Positions 14,918 to 22,469 of a stretch of DNA of 64,000 bases are shown here, in pieces. The notes beneath the pieces were generated by a model. That model ran no database searches. It was not told where the DNA came from and saw only the letters and a program-made list of their open reading frames with translations. A program made the position numbers and the translations under genes. Origin of the DNA: Friedmanniella luteola (lineage in GTDB: Bacteria; Actinomycetota; Actinomycetes; Propionibacteriales; Propionibacteriaceae); contig NZ_LT629749.1 of assembly GCF_900105065.1 (NCBI RefSeq), positions 682,001-746,000 on the forward strand. The letters are read 5' to 3'. The number at the start of each line of letters is the position of its first letter. The first letter of the stretch is position 1.

Positions 14918-15634
14918 TCAGCCCGCCGGGCTCAGCGCCGCCGGACGTCGCCGGGCGAGGATGTGCGGAAGCCCTCGTCCGACCATGGCGAAGGTGCTGC
15001 CGATCCGCTGCGGCCACGAGGGGTCGGCCAGCGGGGCGCCCGCCGGCAGGTCCTGGAGGTCCACGACGTGGGCCTGCACGGCGCCGATGCCCTCCAGGTC
15101 CAGGCCGACGTCCTGCACGGGCAGCCCGGCCGCGGCGGCGGCGCCCTCGCGGTAGAGCTCGTCGGAGACCAGCAGGTACTCCGGCACGGCGACGGGGTTC
15201 TTGAGCAGACGGTGGACCTGGATCACATCCAGCCCGACCAGCTTCTTCCGGCGGCGGATCGTCTGGGTGGCGACCTCGCCGAGGTGGGCGACGAACTTGA
15301 GCTTGAGCTCGCTCGTCCTGGTGCAGCTGCCGCACGGGCACATGTTGAGCTCGACGAACCGTCGCTCCTGGTGGAAGGCCCGGTGCAGGGCGACGGCGGC
15401 CTCGGTGACGGCCGCCCACACCGCCGGCCCGTCCAGGCCCTCCGCGTCGCGGGAGAGGAAGGCCGCGTCGCCCTCGACCTCGATCAGGTCGAAGCCGTGC
15501 GCCGCGTCGACGATCTTGCCGAGCATCCGGGTGGTCGCCGCCTCCGCGTGCCCCAGGACGCTGCGGTGGAACTGCATGTACTCGGTGTAGCCGCCGATGT
15601 CGGCGATCAGCAGGAGCGCCCGTCGGGTCGGCAT
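14918..15634 (-). CDS. DUF2652 protein, class III nucleotidyl-cyclase-like
   Basis: A 238-residue protein of the DUF2652 type, which resembles class III adenylate/guanylate cyclase domains. Both metal-binding Asp positions are kept: D12 in ADIGGYTEYM and D56 in EVEGDAAF. The base-selecting Lys of adenylate cyclases is Glu (E52), as in guanylate cyclases. R142 aligns with the transition-state Arg, but the Asn before it is absent (VIQVHR). A CPCGSC cluster (99-104) may bind a metal. Whether it makes a cyclic nucleotide is unknown. The start is leaderless: TAGCGT ends seven bases before the ATG. It is divergent from the PIG-L/CNB gene. Confidence 0.78.
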   Translation of the reverse strand: MPTRRALLLIADIGGYTEYMQFHRSVLGHAEAATTRMLGKIVDAAHGFDLIEVEGDAAFLSRDAEGLDGPAVWAAVTEAAVALHRAFHQERRFVELNMCPCGSCTRTSELKLKFVAHLGEVATQTIRRRKKLVGLDVIQVHRLLKNPVAVPEYLLVSDELYREGAAAAAGLPVQDVGLDLEGIGAVQAHVVDLQDLPAGAPLADPSWPQRIGSTFAMVGRGLPHILARRRPAALSPAG

Positions 15635-15750
15635 GCCGGCGACGCTAGCAGTGCACGACCGCCCGTGGTAGAACTTCCTCGCTCGTCCGATGGCGGCTCG
15701 TGGCCCGCCCCGAACGCTCAGGCTGGGAGAGGGCTGGACGTGATCAGGCC

Positions 15751-16911
15751 GTGACGCCCCGTCCGCCCTCCCCGGACGGTCTCGCTGCGCTGTGGGGTCC
15801 GCTCGAGCCCGGCGAGCGGCCGTTGCGCGTCCTGGGCCTGTTCGCCCACCCCGATGACGAGGTCTTCTGCGTCGGCGGCACCATCGCCCTGGCCGCGGCC
15901 GCCGGGGCCGAGACCGCCCTCGTCTCCCTGACCCAGGGCGACGCCGGGCAGATCCGGGACTCCGCGGTCGCCACCCGGCGCACCCTGGGCGCGACCCGGG
16001 TCGGTGAGCTGGAGGCGGCGGCCAAGGCCCTGGGCGTCGGCGCGGTGGAGTGCTTCGACCTCGGCGACGGGAACCTGGCCCGGATGCCGTACGCGGACCT
16101 GGTCGTCCTGGTGCGGGAGGTCCTTCAGCGGCACGCCCCGGACGTGGTGGTCACCTTCGGCGACGACGGCGGCTTCGGTCACCCCGACCACATGGCGTCC
16201 TCGCGAGCCGTGCTCTCGGCGCGCGAGCAGCTGGCCCGCCCGCTCCGGGTGCTGCACGCCCGCTTCCCGGCGCACGACCGCCTGCTGGTGGACCTCTTGG
16301 TCGAGTGGCTGACGTCGCGGGAGCGGGAGTCCGTCGGGACGGCCGGGTTCGGCAACGCGCTGCGCCTGTTCGCCGACGGGTCCTCGGTGCTGGGGTTCGC
16401 GGCCGACCACCTGCACGTCCAGTGGTTCCCGGCCGGCTCGTTCGTCATCGAGCAGGGGGAGCCGGCCACCGAGCTGTTCTGCATCCTGTCGGGCTCGGTG
16501 GACATCGTCGTGGAGGACGCCGACGGCGGGCTGCGCACCGTCGACACGGCCTACGCGGGCGCCTTCGTCGGCCAGGACGGCCTGGCCACCAACCGTCCGC
16601 GCAACGCCCACGTCATCGCCCGCGACGACGTCACCTGCTTCGTGCTGTCGCCGCGCGGGCGCGACCTCTCGGCCGGCCGGGGGACCAGCGCCACCGTGGC
16701 CGACGACCCGTCCGGGTCCGACCGACCGGGCCCGGCGGCCGACGACCCCGACGGCGAGGACGACGTCGTCGTCGACGTGCACGCGGCCCTCGACCAGAAG
16801 ATCGCGGCGCTGGTCGCGCACCGCTCCCAGTACGCGCTGGACGCGGAGCTGCTGCCGCGCCAGGTGCTGAGCCCGTTGCTGAGCACCGAGTACTTCACCG
16901 TGGTCGGCTAG
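15751..16911 (+). CDS. PIG-L (LmbE) deacetylase with an inserted cyclic-nucleotide-binding domain
   Basis: A 386-residue fusion. The PIG-L/LmbE zinc deacetylase part starts with FAHPDDE (32-37) and has GFGHPDH near 141-147. At about 220-306 a CNB/CAP-like domain intervenes (FPAGSFVIEQGEPATELFCILSGSVDIVV, ending RPRNAHV). After an acidic Pro/Asp linker, the terminal PIG-L helix resumes as DVHAALDQKIAALVAHRSQ (about 340). So the CNB domain is nested in the deacetylase. Its phosphate-binding cassette keeps the Arg but has VGQ instead of FGE. Related LmbE enzymes act on GlcNAc-inositol, mycothiol conjugates and similar. GTG 15751 is my choice; GTG 15700 is possible. It is 26 bases upstream of an MFS-CNB gene. 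Confidence 0.82.
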   Translation: MTPRPPSPDGLAALWGPLEPGERPLRVLGLFAHPDDEVFCVGGTIALAAAAGAETALVSLTQGDAGQIRDSAVATRRTLGATRVGELEAAAKALGVGAVECFDLGDGNLARMPYADLVVLVREVLQRHAPDVVVTFGDDGGFGHPDHMASSRAVLSAREQLARPLRVLHARFPAHDRLLVDLLVEWLTSRERESVGTAGFGNALRLFADGSSVLGFAADHLHVQWFPAGSFVIEQGEPATELFCILSGSVDIVVEDADGGLRTVDTAYAGAFVGQDGLATNRPRNAHVIARDDVTCFVLSPRGRDLSAGRGTSATVADDPSGSDRPGPAADDPDGEDDVVVDVHAALDQKIAALVAHRSQYALDAELLPRQVLSPLLSTEYFTVVG

Positions 16912-16937
16912 CCGGAGCAGCGGGCGGGGGCGGGGTG

Positions 16938-18614
16938 ATGGCGGCGACGGCGGGGCTGCGCGGACGGCTGGACGGCACCCGCCAGGCGCTGCGGAACCCC
17001 CCGCTCGCCCGCCTGCTGGTGGTCTGGGCGGTCTGGATCACCGCGGACTGGGCGTTGTTGATCACCGTCTCGCTGCTGGCGCTCGACGTCGGCGGCCCGG
17101 CCGCCGTGGGCCTGGTGGGCGCCGTGCGCGTGCTCCCCGCGGCGCTGCTGAGCGCTCCCGCCTCGGTGCTGACCGATCGCTGGGTCCGCAGCCGGCTGCT
17201 GGCGGTCGTCCTGGCGGGCTCGGGTGCGCTGACCGGGGTGCTCGTCTGGTGCGCCTCCGTCGACGCGGGCCTGCCGGTCCTGCTCGTCGTCGTCGCGGCC
17301 GGCTCGGCGATCGGCGCGGCCGTCCGACCCACCCTGCAGGCGATGGTGCCGACGCTGGTCACCTCGCCCGCCGACCTGATCGCCGCCAACGCGGCCTACG
17401 CGACCATCGAGGCCGTCGGCACGGTCGTCGGGCCCGGCCTGTGCGCGGCCCTCCTCGGCGCGGTCGGCCCGCCCGGGGTCCTCGGCGTGCTGGCGGTGCT
17501 CCTCGGCCTGGCCGCCCTGGTCGCCGCCGCGATCCGCACCCCGTTCCGACCGGTCCGGTCGGCCCGGACGTCGGCCCGGGCGGCCTGGCTGGCGCCGCTC
17601 GCCGGCTTCCGCGTGCTCGCGCGGCCGGGGCTGCGGCTCGCGATCTCGCTCTTCCTCGGTCAGACCACCATGCGGGGCCTGCTCAACGTCTTCGTCGTGC
17701 TGGTCGCCACGTCGATGGTGGGCGGGTCCGAGTCCCGGGCCGGCAGCCTCTTCATCGCGATGGGGGTCGGCGGGCTGGTCGGCGCCGCCGTCGCCCTGGG
17801 GCTGGGCCCGCAGCACGGGAGCCGCTGGATCGCGCTGGGCATCGCCCTGTGGGGGCTGCCCGTCGTCGCCATCGGGCTCTGGCCGGACGCGACCGTCGCC
17901 TCGGTCGCGCTCGCCGTCCTGGGGTTCGGCAACGCGCTCCTCGACGTGTCGGGGTACACGCTGGTCAACCGGCTGGTCCCCGACCACCTCGCGGGCCGGG
18001 CCTGGGGCGCCTTCAGCGCCCTGGGCGCGGCCGTCGTCGCCCTCGGCTCGCTGGCGGCCCCGCTGCTGGCGGGGCTGGTGGGGCTGACCGGCGCGATGGT
18101 GCTGACCGGCGCCGTGCTCGCGCTCGCGCCGGCCGTCACCTGGCGGTGGCTCAGCCGCCTCGACGCCCTGGCGAGCGGTCGGGCCGAGGACGTGGAGCTG
18201 CTCCGTCGGGTCCCGCTGTTCGCCGCGCTGTCCCTGGTCGGCGTCGAGCGGCTCGCGCGGGGCGCCCGCACCCGGGATCTGGCGGCGGGCGAGGTCGTGG
18301 TCGAGCAGGGCGAGCCCGCCGCGGACTTCTACGTCATCGCCGAAGGGGCGGCCCTCGTCACGCGGGACGGCCGGGAGGTCCGCCAGCTGGGTCCGGCCGA
18401 GGCGTTCGGCGAGATCGCCCTGCTGGACCCCGGACCGCGCACGGCCACCGTCACGACCGCGGCACCGACCCGCCTGCTCGTCGTGGACCGGGACGGCTTC
18501 GTCGCCGCCGTCACGGGGCACCGGCCGACCGACGACCTCGCCCGGGAGCGGGTGGCCCGGCTGCGCTCCGCCGACGAGGAGCGCTCGACGGGCGAGCCCG
18601 ACGGGCCCCGGTAG
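16938..18614 (+). CDS. MFS transporter with C-terminal cyclic-nucleotide-binding domain
   Basis: A 558-residue membrane protein. Residues about 20-400 form roughly twelve hydrophobic segments of the major facilitator type, with the cytoplasmic loop TDRWVRSRLLA after the second helix. Residues about 415-540 are a CNB domain (AAGEVVVEQGEPAADFYVIAEG) with an intact phosphate cassette FGEIALLDPGPRTATV near 489-502, where Glu and Arg contact the cyclic phosphate and ribose. Transport gated by a cyclic nucleotide is therefore plausible; the substrate is unknown. It follows the PIG-L/CNB gene by 26 bases, so both are likely one operon. A GTG directly before the ATG is an alternative start. Confidence 0.86.
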   Translation: MAATAGLRGRLDGTRQALRNPPLARLLVVWAVWITADWALLITVSLLALDVGGPAAVGLVGAVRVLPAALLSAPASVLTDRWVRSRLLAVVLAGSGALTGVLVWCASVDAGLPVLLVVVAAGSAIGAAVRPTLQAMVPTLVTSPADLIAANAAYATIEAVGTVVGPGLCAALLGAVGPPGVLGVLAVLLGLAALVAAAIRTPFRPVRSARTSARAAWLAPLAGFRVLARPGLRLAISLFLGQTTMRGLLNVFVVLVATSMVGGSESRAGSLFIAMGVGGLVGAAVALGLGPQHGSRWIALGIALWGLPVVAIGLWPDATVASVALAVLGFGNALLDVSGYTLVNRLVPDHLAGRAWGAFSALGAAVVALGSLAAPLLAGLVGLTGAMVLTGAVLALAPAVTWRWLSRLDALASGRAEDVELLRRVPLFAALSLVGVERLARGARTRDLAAGEVVVEQGEPAADFYVIAEGAALVTRDGREVRQLGPAEAFGEIALLDPGPRTATVTTAAPTRLLVVDRDGFVAAVTGHRPTDDLARERVARLRSADEERSTGEPDGPR

Positions 18615-18734: not shown

Positions 18735-19256
18735 GTGGCCGAGCAGGTGAGCGATCTGCCGACGGTCCTGAGGGCCTTCCGCGCGGGCGACGAGCAGGCC
18801 CTGGCGGCGACCTACGCACGCTGGTCGCCGCTGGTCCACAGCATCGCCCTGCGGTCGCTGGGCGACGTCGGCGACGCGGAGGCGGTCACCCAGCGGGTCT
18901 TCACCCGCGCGTGGACCGCCCGCGACACCGCCGGCACGCCCCGCGTCGTCGGGTTGCCGGCCTGGCTGGTCGGGCTGACCCTCGAGGAGGTCGCGCGCTC
19001 CCGGATCTCCCGGGACACCGGGTCGGTCACCGCCGCCGGGTCCGCCGACGTGGCCGACCGGCTGCTGCTGGCGGACGGGGTGTCCCACCTGGACGCCGAG
19101 CCCCAGCAGGTGCTCCGGATGGCGTTGTACGGCGAGCTCACCCACACCCAGATCTCCGACCGCCTGGGGCTGTCCTCCGGCACCGTGCGGGCCCACCTGC
19201 GGCGCGGCCTCGACACGCTGCGCGAGCGGCTGGAGGTGCAGCCGCATGCATGTTGA
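18735..19256 (+). CDS. ECF-type sigma-70 family sigma factor
   Basis: A 173-residue extracytoplasmic-function sigma factor. Region 2 covers about residues 8-75 (AFRAGDEQALAATYARWSPLVHSIALRSLGD...AVTQRVFTRAW) and region 4 about 115-168 (LTHTQISDRLGLSSGTVRAHLRRGLDTLRERL). Start GTG 18735 follows GAGGAG. The last 11 bases overlap the next gene, an anti-sigma factor of zinc-binding type, the standard ECF arrangement. It lies downstream of the MFS-CNB gene after a hairpin and a 94-base gap, so it is probably transcribed separately. Target genes are unknown. Confidence 0.9.
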   Translation: MAEQVSDLPTVLRAFRAGDEQALAATYARWSPLVHSIALRSLGDVGDAEAVTQRVFTRAWTARDTAGTPRVVGLPAWLVGLTLEEVARSRISRDTGSVTAAGSADVADRLLLADGVSHLDAEPQQVLRMALYGELTHTQISDRLGLSSGTVRAHLRRGLDTLRERLEVQPHAC

Positions 19257-19860
19257 TCCCGAGCTGCTGGTCCTGCTCGCCCTGGGCGAGGACGTCGGCA
19301 CCGCCGACGAGCGCCGTCACGCGCAGAGCTGTCCCGCCTGCGCCGACGAGCTCGCGGACCTCCACCGGGTGGCGACCGTCGGCCGTGGCGCGCGGGACGA
19401 GACCCGGCTGGTCAGCCCCGGCCCGGACGTCTGGGCCAGGGTCCGCGCCGAGCTGGGCCTCGACCGCGCGCCGGAACCGTCCCTCCCTCCGACCGCGCAC
19501 GCCAGGCCGGGGCACGACCTGAGGGCGCACGCCCGGCTGACCCCGGTCGAGGCGACCTGGTCCCAGGCGTCGGGCCGGGCGGACCTCGCCACCGACGAGC
19601 GCGGCCGGCGCGTCCTCCAGGTCGCCCTGCACGCCGACCTGCCGTCCTCCGGCATCCGCCAGGCCTGGTTGGTCCACCGCCTCGACCCGAGCCGACGCCA
19701 GACCCTCGGCATCCTGGACGGGCGCGACGGCCTGTGGACCGTCGACCACTCCATCGACCTGCAGGAGTACGCGATCCTCGACATCTCGCAGCAGGGCACG
19801 GGGGAGACCGAGCACTCCGGTCAGACCATCGTCCGCGGCGAGCTCACGCTCGTCGGCTGA
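19246..19860 (+). CDS. zinc-binding (HxxxCxxC) anti-sigma factor without membrane anchor
   Basis: A 204-residue partner of the sigma factor it overlaps. The N-terminal zinc anti-sigma domain has H25, C29 and C32 (RRHAQSCPAC). The C-terminal half resembles the RskA extracytoplasmic domain (RQAWLVHRLDP...GILDGRDGLWTVDHSIDLQEYAILDIS), yet there is no hydrophobic segment between them. This suggests a soluble, cytoplasmic anti-sigma factor that may sense redox or a ligand directly. It differs from the membrane-anchored anti-sigma encoded at 31283-31975. Confidence 0.84.
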   Translation: MHVDPELLVLLALGEDVGTADERRHAQSCPACADELADLHRVATVGRGARDETRLVSPGPDVWARVRAELGLDRAPEPSLPPTAHARPGHDLRAHARLTPVEATWSQASGRADLATDERGRRVLQVALHADLPSSGIRQAWLVHRLDPSRRQTLGILDGRDGLWTVDHSIDLQEYAILDISQQGTGETEHSGQTIVRGELTLVG

Positions 19861-20104: not shown

Positions 20105-21277
20105 ATGACCGCGACCACCCGCCCGCTCCTTCGCCGCGCCAGCAGCGCGGTCCTGCTCGTGATGGCCCTGGTGATGACCTCGGCACCGCTGCCGCACGCC
20201 GACGCCGCGGCCAAGACCTGCAGCGCCACGCCCTTCCGCACCAACGCGGGCCGGAAGGTGGTCTACCGCATCCCGGCGATGGTGCGGACCCCCCAGGGGA
20301 CGCTCGTCGCCTTCGCCGAGCGGCGGCGCAGCACCAGCCCCGCCGCGGACATCTCCGACACCGAGGTCGTCACCGTCCGCTCCACCGACCGCGGCTGCCA
20401 CTGGAGCAAGCCCCGGGTGATCGGCGACGCCGGCAAGGGCACCGTCGGCAACCCGGCCCCGCTGGTCGACACCAGCACCGGCGACGTGCTGCTCGTCACG
20501 ATCCTCCGGCCGAAGGGCGGCACGACCGGGCACGGCTTCCACCTGCAGCGCAGCACGGACGACGGCCGCACCTTCACCGCCTACGCGAAGGCGAGCAAGG
20601 ACCTGGCGGGCATCCCGCGCTGGTCCGGCGGGCTGACCGGGCCGGGTCACGCGATCCAGCTGCGCTCCCCCCGGAGCAAGCACCGTGGCCGGCTCGTCGT
20701 CCCGATGGGCTACAAGGACGGCAACCGCTACGGCGCCTACGCCGTCGTGAGCGACGACCACGGCAAGACCTGGAAGGTCGGCTACAAGGCGACCGGCGAC
20801 GACGGCCGGATCGAGGGCACCGTGGCCGAGCTGCCCGACGGCCGGCTCTGGATCAGCTACCGCAACCGCAACGCGAAGGCCCCGGTGGGCACCGGTCGGA
20901 TCGCCACCTTCTCGAGCGACGGCGGCTCCAGCCTCGACGCCCCCTTCAAGCGGGCCGGGCTGCCGACCGTCTCGGTCCAGGGCAGCGCCCTCGCCCTGAC
21001 CGGCCCCCACGCCGGCACCCTGCTGTTCTCGTCGCCGTCCCGCAAGGACCCGACCCGGCGGCACGGCATGGCCCTGTTCGTCAGCCGCGGCGCGAGCGCG
21101 GGCAAGAGCTGGGGCAGCGGCCGCCCCGTCCAGAAGGACAGCCGGCCCGGCGCCTACTCCGACCTCGTGCAGCTCGACGGCGCCACCGTCGGCATCCTCT
21201 ACGAGACCGGCCAGACGACGTGGAAGGAGCGCATCGACTTCCGCAGCCTCCGGATCGCGGACGTCCTGAAGCGCTGA
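20105..21277 (+). CDS. secreted exo-alpha-sialidase (BNR/Asp-box repeats)
   Basis: A 390-residue exported sialidase-fold enzyme expected to release terminal sialic acid. A Sec signal occupies residues 1-35 (RRASSAVLLVMALVMTSAPL...ADAAA). The mature part shows the catalytic YRIP motif (VVYRIPAMV), an Arg triad context (ERRRS), Asp-boxes STDRGCHWS, STDDGRTFT and SDDHGKTWK, the acidic EGTVAELPDG, and the Tyr/Glu region YSDLVQL and GILYETG. That is a single six-bladed propeller without carbohydrate modules. ATG 20105 follows GGAAGG. The LacI gene downstream may control it. Related enzymes can act on Kdn or other acids. Confidence 0.87.
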   Translation: MTATTRPLLRRASSAVLLVMALVMTSAPLPHADAAAKTCSATPFRTNAGRKVVYRIPAMVRTPQGTLVAFAERRRSTSPAADISDTEVVTVRSTDRGCHWSKPRVIGDAGKGTVGNPAPLVDTSTGDVLLVTILRPKGGTTGHGFHLQRSTDDGRTFTAYAKASKDLAGIPRWSGGLTGPGHAIQLRSPRSKHRGRLVVPMGYKDGNRYGAYAVVSDDHGKTWKVGYKATGDDGRIEGTVAELPDGRLWISYRNRNAKAPVGTGRIATFSSDGGSSLDAPFKRAGLPTVSVQGSALALTGPHAGTLLFSSPSRKDPTRRHGMALFVSRGASAGKSWGSGRPVQKDSRPGAYSDLVQLDGATVGILYETGQTTWKERIDFRSLRIADVLKR

Positions 21278-21446
21278 CCCGTCCGGACCGGCCGGCGGGT
21301 CGAGCGCCCGGCAGGGGTCCTCCGGCAACCGGGTCGTGCACCAACGGACCTGGCTGCCCCGGACGTGCCCGGGTAGATTGCCCGGAGCAGATCCGCACTC
21401 GGGGGAGGGCTTCTGACGCACGCACGAGCCTCCGGGGGGACCAACC

Positions 21447-22469
21447 ATGAGTCGTAGGGCAACCGCACAGGACGTGGCCGACCTGGCCGGCGTCTCGCGC
21501 AGCGCCGTGTCGCTGGTGCTGAACGGGCGGGCGAAGGGGCTCATCTCCGCCGCCAAGCAGGAGGCCGTGCTGGACGCGGCCCGCCGCCTCGAGTACACGC
21601 CCAACGCCGTGGCGCAGAGCCTGCGGACGTCCCGCACCCGCATCCTCGGGGTGCTGACCTGGCGCGGGGTGGGCGGGCTGCCGCTGCACCTGATGGCGTC
21701 GGCGCTCCAGACGTCGCTGAACAGCGGCTACAAGCTGATCAAGATGTACGCCGAGCCCACGGAGATCGACCAGCGCCGGGCCCTGTCGACGCTGGGCAAC
21801 CAGCAGGTCGACGGCATGCTGGTCGTCGCCCCCGAGCTGTGCGAGTACGCGGCGGTCGAGGCGCTGTCTGCGTCCCCGGTGGTGCTGCTCAACTGCCAGG
21901 ACCCCGAGCAGCGGCTCACCAGCGTCGCGCCCGACGAGGAGGGTGCCGGCCGGGGCGCGGTCGAGGCGCTGCTCGACCGCGGCCACCGGGACATCGCCCT
22001 GCTCAGCGGTCCGCTGACCCACTTCCAGACGGGGCTCCGGGCGGCGGGCGCCGCCCAGGCCCTCGTGGGGGCCGGGATCGCGCCCCGGCAGGTGGCGGCC
22101 GACGACCTCCGGATCGACGAGGGCCTGGCCGCCGCCACCGCCCTGCTCACCGCCGACCGGCCGCCGACCGCCCTGGTCTGCACCAACGAGCGGCTCGCCG
22201 TGGGCGTCATGCTGGCGGCGGCGCGGCTGGGCCTGACGGTGCCGGACGACCTCTCCCTCGTCAGCCTGGACGACCGGGAGCAGCTGAGCGCCCAGCTCAG
22301 CCCCGAGGTCACCCGGATGGAGCGGCCCGACGACCTGATGGCCACGCACGCCGCCGAGCTGCTGATCGAGTGGTTGGACAGCGGCAGCGCTCCCGAGGCG
22401 CAGCACTACTCCTTCGTCTGCCCCCTCGTGGCAGGCGCCTCGGTCGCCGGTCCCCGCCCCCGGGGCTGA
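21447..22469 (+). CDS. LacI-family transcriptional regulator
   Basis: A 340-residue repressor. The N-terminal LacI helix-turn-helix is DVADLAGVSRSAVSLVLNG (about residues 8-27), with the hinge NAVAQSLRTSRTRILGVLT. The remainder is a periplasmic-binding-protein-like sugar sensor (VDGMLVVAPE, GHRDIALLSG, PTALVCTNERLAVGVMLAA, SLDD). Such proteins control carbohydrate genes. It lies between the sialidase and a membrane protein gene starting seven bases after its stop, and no operator could be identified with confidence. Confidence 0.9.
   Translation: MSRRATAQDVADLAGVSRSAVSLVLNGRAKGLISAAKQEAVLDAARRLEYTPNAVAQSLRTSRTRILGVLTWRGVGGLPLHLMASALQTSLNSGYKLIKMYAEPTEIDQRRALSTLGNQQVDGMLVVAPELCEYAAVEALSASPVVLLNCQDPEQRLTSVAPDEEGAGRGAVEALLDRGHRDIALLSGPLTHFQTGLRAAGAAQALVGAGIAPRQVAADDLRIDEGLAAATALLTADRPPTALVCTNERLAVGVMLAAARLGLTVPDDLSLVSLDDREQLSAQLSPEVTRMERPDDLMATHAAELLIEWLDSGSAPEAQHYSFVCPLVAGASVAGPRPRG

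Follow-up and report, generated by a model that had tools for sequence, protein, structure and literature searches.

Cyclase-like DUF2652 genes linked to genes for transporters and deacetylases with cyclic-nucleotide-binding domains: a candidate signalling locus in Friedmanniella luteola and its relatives

In the window, a 64,000-nucleotide stretch of contig NZ_LT629749.1 of Friedmanniella luteola, a gene for a class III cyclase-like protein of the DUF2652 family lies beside genes for a PIG-L deacetylase and an MFS transporter that both carry a cyclic-nucleotide-binding domain (CNB). We found this gene set to be real and conserved, its parts each being of a known kind (cyclase and CNB effector). 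Its core is formed by the DUF2652 and MFS/CNB genes, the PIG-L/CNB gene being an addition. The function is well suggested: our best reading, which we hold to be moderately probable, is a local circuit in which a cyclic mononucleotide, perhaps cGMP, would gate an exporter and a deacetylase.

The earlier note had placed the DUF2652 gene divergent from two tandem genes for the CNB-bearing proteins. Strands, coordinates and Pfam domains agree with this arrangement:

14918 to 15634, minus strand: DUF2652 class III cyclase-like protein, 238 aa (Pfam)
15635 to 15750, no strand: divergent intergenic region between the DUF2652 and PIG-L/CNB genes, 116 bp
15751 to 16911, plus strand: PIG-L deacetylase with inserted CNB, probable GTG start at 15751
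16938 to 18614, plus strand: MFS transporter with C-terminal CNB, 558 aa (Pfam)

The first protein matches DUF2652 (PF10851) with E 2.3e-36 and 124.8 bits against a gathering score of 22.1. The second matches PIG-L (E 3.7e-30) and cNMP_binding (E 8.3e-16), the third MFS_1 (E 4.6e-23) and cNMP_binding (E 2.5e-18). The PIG-L/CNB gene probably starts at the GTG rather than at the longest-ORF start at 15700, since sequence conservation begins there; the MFS/CNB gene starts with an ATG 26 bases past the PIG-L/CNB stop. Within the intergenic region the portion beside the DUF2652 start is partly conserved among relatives. No close match to the locus was found in PLSDB when plasmid carriage was considered. 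Directly downstream of the MFS/CNB gene an ECF sigma factor is followed by an HxxxCxxC (anti-sigma-like) protein (18735-19860); these two genes are missing at the other linked loci and were therefore rejected as part of the unit. Further on are a BNR-repeat (sialidase-like) protein and a LacI-family regulator (20105-22469).

Conserved linkage across genomes, which the earlier note had proposed to look for, was found in eight genomes from five families of one class (f1, f2, f9, f108, f115), in otherwise unrelated flanks. The idea of a module thus withstood a check by which it could have failed. All eight window-type DUF2652 genes adjoin an MFS/CNB gene, and at five of them a PIG-L/CNB gene is present as well. 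Within the genus, PIG-L/CNB occurs in 4 of 20 genomes, every time with a divergent DUF2652 gene and an MFS/CNB gene alongside. A scan of the whole collection with the C-terminal half of PIG-L/CNB returned only two loci and was too narrow to judge the spread of the set, so we surveyed 395 genomes of the class with a profile of the window-type DUF2652. This yielded five window-type genes in five families, at 282 bits or more, together with eight DUF2652 genes of mycobacterial type, all from one genus (f5/g33) that we infer to be Mycobacterium. Four of the loci were new; MFS/CNB is adjacent in each, and PIG-L/CNB is present in one (G898).

The arrangement of the genes differs from locus to locus. 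In the window the DUF2652 gene is divergent from PIG-L/CNB, which is followed by MFS/CNB. Microlunatus flavus (G059) has MFS/CNB convergent with DUF2652 and DUF2652 divergent from PIG-L/CNB, and in G898 MFS/CNB is divergent from PIG-L/CNB, which in turn is convergent with DUF2652. At two loci (G671, G797) DUF2652 and MFS/CNB lie on the same strand with a gap of roughly 40-50 bp, and at another (G712) the two overlap, the DUF2652 gene beginning before the end of MFS/CNB. When all flanks were compared with each other (some 20 kb of surroundings per locus for the eight loci, but 5 kb in the case of the Friedmanniella MAG G543), the only other common genes were LacI-type regulators and two low-identity pairwise matches.

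The genes might be neighbours by chance, or an ordinary CNB transporter might happen to sit beside an unrelated DUF. MFS/CNB proteins are indeed broadly distributed in the phylum (matched in 26 of 246 genomes) and mostly occur without DUF2652. Cyclase genes in general are only about twice as dense near unlinked MFS/CNBs (9 in 355 kb) as at control loci (3 in 248 kb), and we rejected as not convincing the idea that MFS/CNBs generally lie beside class III cyclases. Against a chance arrangement, a CNB gene was found within 3 kb at only about 1 of 21 other-type DUF2652 loci with flanking sequence (G346), some of these controls being on short contigs where absence is not certain. The difference from 8 of 8 has a Fisher p of about 2e-6, uncorrected for relatedness. 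Mycobacterial DUF2652 loci that were examined showed no MFS/CNB partner, and no CNB gene is near a DUF2652 gene of the f5 genus (G814) whose product shares the E/K residue pair of the window protein. Taken with the differing flanks and gene orders and a transporter exchange described below, these data largely refute a chance association, which we regard as very improbable. As side observations, one MFS/CNB (G135, L047:141-6829) lies about 650 bp from a gene for a class III cyclase-AAA-TPR protein on a contig without DUF2652, and in G300 (L193:4194-6206) an MFS protein apparently carries two tandem CNB domains.

In the phylogenetic tree the eight linked DUF2652 proteins form one clade (96/99), inside which the DUF2652 proteins of the five PIG-L/CNB carriers group together (94/99). 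As this clade has one origin, the eight loci are not independent events. The linked MFS/CNBs fall into two separate supported clades: one comprises the window, G114, G543 and the unlinked G073; the other M. flavus, G898, G671, G797, G712 and the unlinked G135, whose contig makes it the one MFS/CNB without DUF2652 in a mostly linked clade. It follows that in one lineage the transporter was replaced by one of another subfamily without loss of the linkage. The simplest account would start from an ancestral pair of MFS/CNB and DUF2652, to which PIG-L/CNB was added once, with a single transporter exchange in the lineage of the window. That the pairing outlasted this exchange speaks for a functional tie between the two proteins.

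The earlier note had described a CNB attached to both partner proteins. A CNB is present in each, but that of the deacetylase is inserted rather than appended. In the numbering of the 403-aa ORF the PIG-L core spans about 47-190, the CNB about 216-320 and the C-terminal PIG-L part about 358-403, which by sequence places the CNB within the PIG-L fold, between core and C-terminal part. Ordinary PIG-L proteins end in a segment like VDCSSVYQRKLEALRQHRTQ...EAF; the window protein has the corresponding terminal VDVHAALDQKIAALVAHRSQ...EYF, with the CNB lying between it and the PIG-L core, and the distant PIG-L/CNB proteins of G286 and G898 show the same split. The zinc-site motifs AHPDDE and GHPDH are invariant in five aligned proteins. 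MshB and BshB2 of the PIG-L family share the core with AHPDDE and HPDH motifs and differ from the window protein by its inserted CNB; their NCBIfam equivalog cut-offs were missed by a wide margin (88 vs 195 bits and 81 vs 224 bits). The mycobacterial acetyltransferase Pat (CNB-GNAT, PDB 4ava, 4onu) likewise combines an enzyme and a CNB of similar sequence in one chain, but its catalytic domain is another one and its CNB is N-terminal. PIG-L/CNB was seen without DUF2652 once, in G286 from another class, where it adjoins putative NRPS-type, Sfp-type and ThiF-like genes (L125:2628-10706, by sequence reading). This case and the wide occurrence of MFS/CNB without DUF2652 indicate that each effector can serve other inputs.

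For both CNBs the best solved relatives are the regulatory domains of PKA and PKG (E 1e-20 or better). The CNB of the transporter has a canonical phosphate-binding cassette, FGEIALLDPGPRTATV, whose Gly-Glu and Arg are retained in aligned relatives; FGE...PRTATV is found in the window, G114, G059, G135 and G073, and close variants in G898, G671, G797 and G712. In the deacetylase the cassette reads GQDGLATNRPRNAHV. Its Arg is kept in all six proteins, and its Glu is replaced by Gln in three (window, G114, G543), a point against the proposed circuit, and present in the others (G059, G898, G286). Bacterial cAMP receptors also carry Ser or Thr after the cassette Arg, for which reason an assignment to cGMP from the Thr at this position was dropped.

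The DUF2652 protein of the window gave no direct Pfam match to PF00211. In a profile comparison (hhalign) of 29 DUF2652 sequences with 30 class III cyclase domains from relatives, the two families aligned over 146 columns in the correct motif register, with E 5.8e-6 and a probability of 85%; two decoy families reached E 0.15-0.53 and probabilities of 0.1-0.4%. This sequence comparison shows homology of DUF2652 with class III cyclases across the catalytic domain. The evidence for the fold rests on the profiles, since AlphaFold models from shallow alignments failed (mean pLDDT 31 for DUF2652, 41 for PIG-L/CNB); a profile of eight DUF2652 proteins, run against the PDB, gave only a weak cyclase match (3mr7, E 0.78). 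Both metal aspartates noted earlier are borne out by the alignment, in which D12 and D56 fall on the class III positions. At the substrate positions E52 replaces Lys and K131 replaces Asp, so that the usual K/D pair has become E/K. I138 takes the place of the transition-state Asn, and the Arg is kept as R142. Across the family the substrate pair covaries (K/E, E/K, A/T, S/S, E/R, N/E). By the residues used by Ramakrishnan et al. (2016, PMC4886424), the window pattern D,D; E,K; H,R would predict a putative guanylyl cyclase, and E52 and K131 weakly and only slightly favour cGMP as product. The missing Asn and the unusual substrate pair mean that the protein could be inactive; some active cyclases lack this Asn (PMC4886424).

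Two side observations concern the family as a whole. A CxCxxC motif (C99/C101/C104) and His 117 are invariant in 29 of 29 homologues compared and are a possible metal or redox site; zinc is absent from the text of the 2016 paper (PMC4886424). Also, other actinobacterial genomes encode fusions of DUF2652 with a polyketide-cyclase/SRPBCC domain (L044:455-1615, strong match; L059:9588-10700, weak match).

The residue pattern bears on an alternative in which the CNBs read the general cAMP pool supplied by a canonical cyclase, and DUF2652, as a pseudo-enzyme or sensor that binds nucleotides, acts on its partners otherwise, e.g. by protein contact. The genome of the window encodes seven CNB proteins and a CRP-like protein, and has one canonical class III cyclase (PF00211) that could supply the nucleotide; the absent transition-state Asn and the E/K pair would suit a pseudo-enzyme. 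On the other hand, the Arg and both metal aspartates, needless for such a protein, are preserved in nearly all DUF2652 proteins compared, and the complete genome of M. flavus carries the trio without a PF00211 match at E <= 1e-10. At this strict cut-off DUF2652 is favoured as the nucleotide source there. We consider the general-pool alternative unlikely, while ranking it above the other alternatives.

A further explanation is an antiphage system like Pycsar (PycC with PycTIR or PycTM; PMC11224242), in which DUF2652 would make a cyclic pyrimidine upon infection and the membrane protein or the hydrolase would be the effector. The logic of a class III-fold cyclase gene beside CNB effectors is the same, the CNBs hit PycTIR models in their CNB portion, and PycC clades vary among themselves at the substrate positions (PMC11224242). 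However, DUF2652 matched none of the PycC models (PADLOC), neither putative effector is a pore or TIR protein, one being a full-length transporter and the other an intact hydrolase, and the neighbouring genes scanned in the window seem to belong to metabolism or regulation. An antiphage role thus seems improbable.

The earlier note knew of no described system with these three parts. This holds for the trio and for PIG-L/CNB: neither a conserved trio nor a PIG-L or LmbE protein with a CNB was found in our literature search. It does not hold for the components, as DUF2652 was published as a nucleotide cyclase-like family, with CNB genes listed near Rv2561 in M. tuberculosis (PMC4886424), and the existence of MFS-CNB fusions is mentioned in a review (PMC10710835). 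The published DUF2652 proteins belong to the same Pfam family with the same D,D / E,K / H,R pattern, e.g. I4EWW4 of Modestobacter marinus. No MFS/CNB or PIG-L/CNB partner is reported for them (PMC4886424), whereas here MFS/CNB lies beside every member found of one DUF2652 clade. Likewise, the transporters have the architecture mentioned in the review (PMC10710835), and in our data two of their subfamilies are linked with a cyclase-like gene.

Since a cyclase-like gene travels with a CNB-bearing transporter and often a deacetylase, the locus has the appearance of a small, private circuit for signalling. Some signal would switch on the DUF2652 enzyme, which would form a cyclic mononucleotide, cGMP being slightly favoured. 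The nucleotide would bind the cytosolic CNB of the transporter and change efflux; bound by the CNB inside the deacetylase, it would change hydrolysis of an N-acyl substrate, whose product may be the exported compound. A glycoconjugate as the substrate of deacetylation or transport, as proposed earlier, is a guess. In the stricter form of this circuit the DUF2652 enzyme would directly gate both the MFS exporter and the PIG-L deacetylase through their CNBs by a private second messenger, which we put forward tentatively as a possibility somewhat weaker than the broader circuit.

The prediction that DUF2652 proteins are cyclases dates from 2016, and we found no pathway or receptor for them in the literature. 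With two candidate receptors in a conserved, reshuffled gene set, this prediction becomes directly testable. If the dedicated circuit is true, an MFS exporter and a PIG-L hydrolase would be under the control of cyclic nucleotide binding, of which we found no described case, and a pathway would be assigned to a DUF2652 protein for the first time, one of post-translational control of transport and deacylation.
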